NCBI RefSeq assembly: GCF_022227765.1
Contig: NZ_JAJMLZ010000002.1
Coordinates: forward strand, 186,001-250,000
Reading direction: 5' to 3'
DNA length: 64,000 nucleotides
From: Ectothiorhodospira shaposhnikovii
GTDB lineage: Bacteria; Pseudomonadota; Gammaproteobacteria; Ectothiorhodospirales; Ectothiorhodospiraceae
Of this stretch, positions 56,776 through 59,337 are shown one piece after another (the first letter of the stretch is position 1; each line of letters begins with the position of its first letter). The translations under genes and the position numbers were made by a program. A model generated the notes under the pieces. It worked only from the letters and a program-made list of their open reading frames with translations. It was not told the DNA's origin and searched no databases.

Positions 56776-57858
<1,083 letters not shown>

Positions 57859-57956
57859 TCCCGACACCCGGCGCCGCCACTCCCCCTTCACCCGGCGGAC
57901 CCTGACGGGTCCGTCCCGTCGCACCCCATGGATTCATTGCCGCAGGAGGGCCTGCT

Positions 57957-58853
57957 ATCAAACAGCCGCTCTTCAACCTGGGGCCGTCTCCCGCTTTTCG
58001 GCTGGCACTGTGTGTGATCCTGTCCCTGGTGATCATGACCCTGGATCATCGCCACGACCACCTGCAGCAGGCCAGGACCACCCTCGCCCTGCTGGTGTAT
58101 CCCGTGCAGTATCTGGCGGACCTGCCGGTGCGGACCGGTGACTGGATACGGGAACAGTTCTCCACCCACCAGACCCTGATCGCCGAAAACCGCGCCCTGC
58201 GCGAAGAACAGTTCCGGATGCGCAGCCTGCTGCTGCGCTTCGAAGCCCTGGAAACGGAGAATGCCCGGCTACGGGAACTGCTCGACACTTCCACGCGCCT
58301 GCGGGAGGAAGTGGTGATCGCGGAACTGCTGTCCGTGGATCTGGACCCGTTCCGACAGCAGGTTCTGGTCAACAAGGGGCATTTTCACGGCGTCTACGCG
58401 GGCCAGCCCCTGATCAATGCCGCCGGCGTGGTGGGGCAGATCCTGGAAGTCAACGCCCTGCACAGTGTCGCCCTGCTGATCTCCGATCCCAGCCACGCCC
58501 TGCCCGTCCAGGTCAACCGCACCGGCCTGCGCACACTGGCGGTCGGCACCGGCAACCCCGAACGCCTGTCGCTGCGCTTCATCCCCCCCAGCGAGGACAT
58601 CGAGCCCGGCGACATCATCAGCACCTCGGGGCTGGGCGGACGTTTCCCCGCCGACTATCCGGTGGCGCGGGTCGTCCGGGTCGAACGCCCTTCCGGCGAA
58701 CCCTTCGCCGTGGTGGAGGCGAGGCCGATGGCCAGACTGGACCGCTCCCGGGAGGTGCTGCTGCTGTGGCCGGCCGACGGGGGGCGCCGGAACGGGCCGA
58801 CCTCGCCCGCTGACACGGACACCCCGGCAGCCACGGAGGAGGACCATGGATAA
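57957..58853 (+). CDS. mreC: Rod-shape-determining protein MreC (apparent AUC start)
   Basis: 298 residues if translation begins at ATC 57957, which has AGGAGGG six bases upstream. The reading then gives (M)KQPLFNLGPSPAFRLAL, closely matching the family N-terminus (E. coli MKPIFSRGPS...). The first standard in-frame start is GTG 58014, which would cut away half of the membrane helix LALCVILSLVIMTL. A coiled coil (about residues 65-110, ENRALREEQFRMRSLLLRFE) precedes the two beta domains with ISDPSHALPVQVNRTGLR and ISTSGLGGRFPADYPVA. It is a bitopic periplasmic scaffold linking MreB to cell-wall enzymes. An upstream ATG at 57928 is out of frame. Confidence 0.85.
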   Translation: MKQPLFNLGPSPAFRLALCVILSLVIMTLDHRHDHLQQARTTLALLVYPVQYLADLPVRTGDWIREQFSTHQTLIAENRALREEQFRMRSLLLRFEALETENARLRELLDTSTRLREEVVIAELLSVDLDPFRQQVLVNKGHFHGVYAGQPLINAAGVVGQILEVNALHSVALLISDPSHALPVQVNRTGLRTLAVGTGNPERLSLRFIPPSEDIEPGDIISTSGLGGRFPADYPVARVVRVERPSGEPFAVVEARPMARLDRSREVLLLWPADGGRRNGPTSPADTDTPAATEEDHG

Positions 58854-59337
58854 AATCCGCGGCCTGCTGTTGGTCATCCCCCTGACCCTCCTTGCAGCCT
58901 TTGTGCTGACCATCCTGCCGCTGCCGGACTGGGCCATCCACTGGCGTCCGGAATGGGTGGCCATGACGGTCATCTACTGGAACATGGCTCTGCCGCGACG
59001 GGTGGGCGTGGGTACCGCCTGGCTCCTCGGCCTGCTGCTGGACGTGACCAAGGGTGCTCTGCTGGGTCAGCACGCCTTGGCCATGGCGCTGATCGCCTGG
59101 ATCAGCATCCGCCTGCATCAGCGAATCCGGGTCTACCCCCTGTGGCAGCAGGCCATCACCGTCGGCGCCCTGCTGGCCCTGTTCAAGCTGATGGTGCTAT
59201 GGGTCTACGGCATCACCGGACATGCGCCGGGCACCTGGCTGTACTGGGCCCCGCTGGCCGCCAGCATCCTGCTGTGGCCGCTGATTTTCGTACTCCTGCG
59301 ACGGATACGTCGCCGCTGGTGCCTGAGCCTGGCCTGA
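58846..59337 (+). CDS. mreD: Rod-shape-determining membrane protein MreD
   Basis: 163 residues with about five membrane helices, overlapping mreC by eight bases. Motifs such as WRPEWVAMTVIYWNMALPRRVGVGTAWLLGLLLDVTKGALLGQHALA (region about 33-80) are typical of gammaproteobacterial MreD. It acts with MreB/C in the elongasome. The usual downstream pbp2-rodA genes are not adjacent; a convergent chaN gene lies 10 bases on. Confidence 0.95.
   Translation: MDKIRGLLLVIPLTLLAAFVLTILPLPDWAIHWRPEWVAMTVIYWNMALPRRVGVGTAWLLGLLLDVTKGALLGQHALAMALIAWISIRLHQRIRVYPLWQQAITVGALLALFKLMVLWVYGITGHAPGTWLYWAPLAASILLWPLIFVLLRRIRRRWCLSLA

Follow-up and report, generated by a model that had tools for sequence, protein, structure and literature searches.

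In the window, the whole stretch of 64 000 nucleotides from Ectothiorhodospira shaposhnikovii that was analysed, the cell-shape gene mreC very probably starts at an AUC codon (ATC at 57957), and we hold the conservation of that start, judged by sequence comparison, to be equally probable. AUC start codons are very rare. On the best reading of these comparisons, mreC would exemplify an AUH start (AUC, AUU or AUA) that is ancient and conserved in the Gammaproteobacteria, of the type found in infC. The class was taken to be Gammaproteobacteria from kinship with Ectothiorhodospira, and all start labels were assigned by rule.

The mreC locus

The genes mreB, mreC and mreD follow one another in this order and in one direction in the window. 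The features of the locus are listed below, with the basis for each in brackets.

56812–57858, + strand: mreB, the upstream gene, ATG start (ORF; TIGR00904, 524 bits; Pfam MreB_Mbl, 488.7 bits)
57903–57905, + strand: in-frame TGA closing the mreC frame upstream (codon walk)
57944–57950, + strand: AGGAGGG, Shine-Dalgarno sequence of mreC (sequence; anti-Shine-Dalgarno duplex of −10.8 kcal/mol)
57957–57959, + strand: ATC (AUC), probable start codon of mreC (family conservation; no canonical codon between the in-frame stop and the ATC)
57957–58853, + strand: mreC coding sequence, 298 codons and stop (ORF, profile scores)
58014–58016, + strand: GTG, first canonical in-frame codon, within the membrane helix; rejected as start (ORF; conserved residues upstream of it)
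58846–59337, + strand: mreD, the downstream gene, ATG start, overlapping the end of mreC (ORF; TIGR03426, 119 bits)

Read from ATC 57957, the mreC frame translates as IKQPLFNLGPSPAFRLALCVILSLV... and its stop ends at 58853. The product scores 198.7 bits against TIGR00219, over the curated cut-off of 92.75, and 131.2 bits against Pfam MreC (PF04085, cut-off 28). The claim of the earlier note that the frame from this codon reproduces the N-terminus of the MreC family holds. The note had also placed the end of AGGAGGG six bases before the ATC, which is exact (the spacer is CCTGCT), and had correctly identified GTG 58014 as the first in-frame ATG, GTG or TTG, one that cuts the membrane helix. The codon walk over the 17 in-frame codons from TGA 57903 to ATC 57957 found no ATG, GTG, TTG or CTG. 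One ATT (57936) is present among the in-frame codons upstream of the ATC.

That mreC truly starts at GTG 58014, the stretch upstream being untranslated, is very unlikely, even though this is the first canonical codon in frame and an MreC truncated to it still scores 191.2 bits against TIGR00219. Besides the loss of part of the helix, the residues upstream of the GTG are conserved as protein over 54 families, with third bases freer, and the AUH is preceded by a purine-rich core in those family members whose sequences were displayed, though this core is weak in one of them (L020).

ATG 57928 was considered as the mreC start and rejected because it is out of frame; among the named records compared, only E. 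lacustris has the same ATG. Readthrough or fusion from mreB was also rejected, as an in-frame stop lies between mreB and mreC.

Conservation of the start among close relatives

An mreC match was found in all 10 genomes of the genus Ectothiorhodospira and in 46 of the 47 genomes of the GTDB family. The 5′ end was read in 45 of these, the two family genomes left out being G029, where the start is at a contig edge, and G031, which has no mreC match. The start codon is ATC in 43 of the 45, ATT in one (L020) and ATA in one (L033), so that all 45 have AUH. No ATG, GTG or TTG was found in the range walked back from the AUH in 40 of the 45. ATG at this codon in close relatives, which the earlier note had named as evidence that would count against an AUC start, was found in none of the 45 family genomes. 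Comparison of the 5′ ends of relatives, as the note had proposed, thus gave no ATG within the family, but more distant relatives do have ATG (E. coli, and 27 of the 191 genomes described below were assigned ATG).

Among named records, ATC is at the mreC start in E. lacustris, E. shaposhnikovii DSM 243, E. magna B7-7 and Thioalkalivibrio sulfidiphilus ALJ17, in each case with a purine-rich Shine-Dalgarno sequence ahead of it. Further 5′ of the Shine-Dalgarno sequence, E. lacustris is still similar to the window, and E. shaposhnikovii DSM 243, E. magna and T. sulfidiphilus have diverged. The recurrence of the codon, the Shine-Dalgarno sequence and the protein N-terminus in independent genomes excludes chance. 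A single base change would suffice to turn ATG into ATC, but the possibility that the ATC is a sequencing or assembly error is negligible, as it is refuted by the relatives, namely the 43 of 45 family genomes and the named records with the same codon.

In six family genomes (G015, G018, G023, G024, G032 and G039), just one codon stands between the in-frame stop and the mreC ATC. This lone codon is GCC, ACT or ACC (for example TAA GCC ATC or TGA ACT ATC), and an upstream canonical start is therefore impossible in these genomes.

The single family member with ATT (L020, genome G046) has a weak Shine-Dalgarno sequence, and GTG or TTG codons are found 9–13 codons further upstream. Another start is possible there.

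Start codon or internal isoleucine

If a non-canonical codon further upstream were the start (ATT 57936 in the window, CTG or GCC in relatives), the AUC would be an internal isoleucine codon. We consider this highly improbable. ATT 57936 is in frame with mreC, and a CTG lies between the stop and the AUH in 18 of the 128 genomes that have AUH and no canonical codon (see below); against this, the six family genomes above have nothing but GCC, ACT or ACC in that place, and the residues upstream of the AUH are not conserved. In addition, species that start with ATG and have the same N-terminus carry the ATG at the AUH column (E. coli, L221, L228 and L229).

The limits of conservation were examined in a codon-conservation table made up of one AUH genome from each of 54 families. 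Upstream, at codons −12 to −5, amino acids vary almost at random; from the mreC AUH onward, variation falls sharply. The G-rich Shine-Dalgarno signal appears at codons −4 and −3. The AUH is directly followed by Lys in 48 of the 54 families, and the conserved N-terminal residues are Lys, Leu/Ile-Phe, Gly-Pro-Ser and Arg. Downstream of the AUH, several first and second codon positions are constrained and third positions are freer. The first column is Ile in 54/54 by construction, since the rows were selected as AUH, and this is no proof of a start. Third-base use did not differ between the mreC start and internal Ile codons (ATA in 8/56 and 20/247, respectively; Fisher p=0.20), and the third base alone is therefore no marker of a start.

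The neighbouring genes served as controls in a set of 82 loci with flanks, 81 of them distinct (L005 and L018 are the same mreC stretch). This set includes 25 loci from the phylum draw described below and E. coli (L204). Under a start rule that is looser than the one applied to mreC, a canonical codon was within reach in all 81 mreB genes located (mreB was not located in L060) and in all 82 mreD genes. For mreC, 21 of the 82 loci were assigned a canonical start and 59 AUH, and two (L219 and L222, which read ATT) were not placed by the rule.

Start codons of mreC across the class

A draw from the class comprised 281 genomes with 259 mreC matches, of which the best 150, those most like the query, were read. 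The conserved (Leu/Ile)-Phe motif was used as anchor, and canonical codons were sought by walking back until an in-frame stop was reached or about 30 codons had been covered. Among these best 150 of 259 matches, the assigned start is AUH in 108, canonical in 41 and neither in one. Combining them with the family genomes gave 191 genomes in 80 families, with AUH assigned in 149, a canonical start in 41 (ATG 27, GTG 12, TTG 2) and none in one.

An AUH with no ATG, GTG or TTG in range was found in 128 of the 191 genomes, from 49 families (ATC 74, ATT 30, ATA 24). The rest are 17 genomes with AUH and a canonical codon, 40 with a canonical codon only, five with AUH three codons further out and one with neither. 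G288, one of the 17 with both, has an ATG at the motif and was counted as canonical. An in-frame stop lies within 10 codons of the AUH in 79 of the 128 genomes, and in 12 of them, from families f1, f2, f19, f96 and f99, exactly one codon separates the two. When counted by family over the genomes read, AUH is found in 56 of the 80 families, canonical mreC starts in 28 and both in four.

A draw from the phylum, which brought in loci from families with larger genomes, provided 29 further loci for viewing, which are all from the same class, include four repeats of genomes already read and are outside the 191-genome counts. Three of these (L205, L206 and L208, from one genus with genomes of 6.0–6.7 Mb) read TAG GAG CCG GTC ATC AAA CCG and have no canonical alternative; L221, L228 and L229 have ATG. 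The mreC start of E. coli K-12 is also ATG.

These counts suggest that AUH is the usual, overlooked start of mreC across much of the class. The initiation at AUC claimed in the earlier note is strongly supported, but its scale was missed, namely that AUH is a class of start codon found in most of the gammaproteobacterial genomes read.

Several genomes depart from the usual arrangement. In family f85 (L128, L135 and L196), ATC TAC CGC or ATC TAC CGT comes right after an in-frame TAA and the N-terminus is three residues longer; the AUH start appears to be retained in a shifted position. L136 and L140 (family f104) have an ATA six codons before the motif and a longer N-terminus, making this an AUH candidate in a different place from most. 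In L140, a GTG preceded by a good Shine-Dalgarno sequence stands three codons above the ATA, and this locus was counted as canonical. L161 (genome G140) reads ATC GTT AAA CTC TTA TTT, with no ATG, GTG or TTG back to the in-frame stop. It was counted as AUH, as one of the 128 genomes above, but this is doubtful; the GTT is at the usual column with better Shine-Dalgarno spacing, and a GUU start is possible.

Shine-Dalgarno strength

A Shine-Dalgarno core (GGAGG, GAGG, GGAG, AGGA or GGGG) precedes 140 of the 149 mreC AUH codons, 6–8 nt away in 123, and nine AUH codons have no recognisable core. The predicted duplex with the anti-Shine-Dalgarno sequence is stronger for AUH than for canonical starts (medians of family means of −7.4 and −2.7 kcal/mol; rank test p=2e-7, kinship ignored). 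There are exceptions on both sides, as 10 of the 41 canonical starts reach −6 kcal/mol and 29 of the 149 AUH starts fall short of it. Over the loci with flanks, the medians are −9.4 kcal/mol for AUH mreC (59 loci), −3.9 kcal/mol for canonical mreC, −3.2 kcal/mol for mreB of the AUH loci and −6.3 kcal/mol for mreD of all 82 loci. An A at +4 was found in 54 of 56 AUH families and 13 of 28 canonical ones, a comparison that ignores kinship and is bound up with the conserved Lys.

A tree of MreC fragments, rough and poorly supported, has at least 21 changes of start class, a number that its poor resolution probably inflates. Kinship was corrected for in an independent-pairs test of the Shine-Dalgarno contrast, which gave four supported pairs and pointed neither way. 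The generally weak Shine-Dalgarno sequences of species with canonical starts fit stabilising selection on a low rate of initiation, reached by two routes.

Proposed mechanism and MreC dose

In the mechanism that we propose, the initiator tRNA would start mreC at AUC 57957, with formyl-methionine as the first residue, positioned by the strong Shine-Dalgarno sequence. Pairing with the CAU anticodon fails at the third base, which would make initiation inefficient and expose it to rejection by IF3. The strong Shine-Dalgarno sequence, perhaps helped by the A at +4, would keep the AUC usable and rescue the gene from silence. MreC would then be made at a low, IF3-sensitive dose, beside more abundant MreB from the same gene cluster. 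The initiator residue, a shared mRNA (from gene order), the IF3 sensitivity, the low dose and a regulatory role are what we infer.

IF3 destabilises mismatched complexes of this kind and represses non-canonical starts, as described for infC and shown for the GTC start of sigR (PMC5472188). Weak codon–anticodon pairs are reported to give very low yields in a reconstituted system (PMC10158994).

The chances that MreC dose is low through a weak start are about even. That a weak start holds MreC below MreB, as the earlier note had suggested, is plausible but complicated by the Shine-Dalgarno sequence of mreC, which is far stronger than that of mreB. It is doubtful that IF3 is a physiological regulator of MreC. 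An equally tentative extension is that mreC may be a second deeply conserved IF3-gated gene, with MreC dose and cell-wall elongation tied, in much of the Gammaproteobacteria, to IF3 and the state of initiation. Lineages that went over to AUG, of the E. coli type, would then hold MreC low by a weak Shine-Dalgarno sequence instead.

Alternatively, the AUH may be a weak constitutive start that is free of physiological control by IF3 and persists through its strong Shine-Dalgarno sequence. We give this an even chance; the AUC start itself is common to it and to the mechanism proposed above. Both the association of strong Shine-Dalgarno sequences with AUH and weak ones with canonical starts, and the frequent switches of start class on the rough tree, speak for it. 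On the other side, IF3 discriminates against non-canonical starts in other systems (PMC5472188), so some IF3 sensitivity is expected.

Comparison with known systems

MreC is a cell-wall elongation protein of the rod complex, and we know of no role for it in translation. The gene for IF3, infC, is like mreC in having an AUH start and a Shine-Dalgarno sequence. In the genome studied here, infC (L183:1489) starts at AUC in the same layout as mreC. It reads TGA CAT ATC, so that an in-frame stop stands two codons above the start, and eight bases separate GGAGG from the ATC. It differs in that IF3 regulates its own gene, infC, whereas control of mreC by IF3 would be one-way. A further AUH start outside infC is that of pcnB, which starts at AUU in E. 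coli; no AUH start could be assigned for pcnB in the source genome, which gives no parallel to mreC. Elsewhere, infC starts at ATT in E. coli and at ATC in Streptomyces (PMC5472188).

The sigR gene of Streptomyces resembles mreC in its conserved non-canonical start, its strong, conserved ribosome-binding site and its misannotation in genomes, and its start keeps SigR below its operon partner RsrA (PMC5472188). It differs in that the start is GTC in 32/34 species and GTT in 2/34, and not AUH, and in that repression by IF3 was demonstrated by experiment. The same report found no evidence for such a sigR start in the other actinobacterial genera compared. The possible GUU start of G140 resembles the GTT of the two Streptomyces sigR genes.

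The mreC of E. coli has the same N-terminus (MKPIFSRGPS) and gene order, but differs in its canonical ATG and in a Shine-Dalgarno sequence that is weak (L204, −3.0 kcal/mol). Among solved structures, a search gave six MreC sequences, none of which is informative on the start.

Novelty and implications

Very few non-canonical starts have been experimentally characterised, with infC as the standing example (PMC5472188). No report of a non-canonical mreC start was found among the papers listed in searches of a full-text library with few subscription papers. A conserved AUH start is of a kind already known from infC, and mreC, over much of the class, would be a further member.

If the AUH start is correct, gene finders confined to ATG, GTG and TTG misplace the mreC start in many Gammaproteobacteria, and constructs, residue numbering and reporter fusions based on such starts would have an incomplete N-terminal membrane anchor or add spurious residues. 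It would also provide a testable link between the fidelity of translation initiation (IF3) and cell shape. Species with AUH and species with AUG form a natural series for the trade-off between start codon and Shine-Dalgarno strength.

The mreB–mreC gap

Folding of the mreC leader RNA, taken as a whole, shows no excess of structure over shuffled sequences (z=0.12). The gap between mreB and mreC contains an inverted repeat at 57894–57915, GGCGGACCC-TGAC-GGGTCCGTC, which is partly retained, in altered form, in L002. It is not followed by a run of T and may be a processing or attenuation hairpin.
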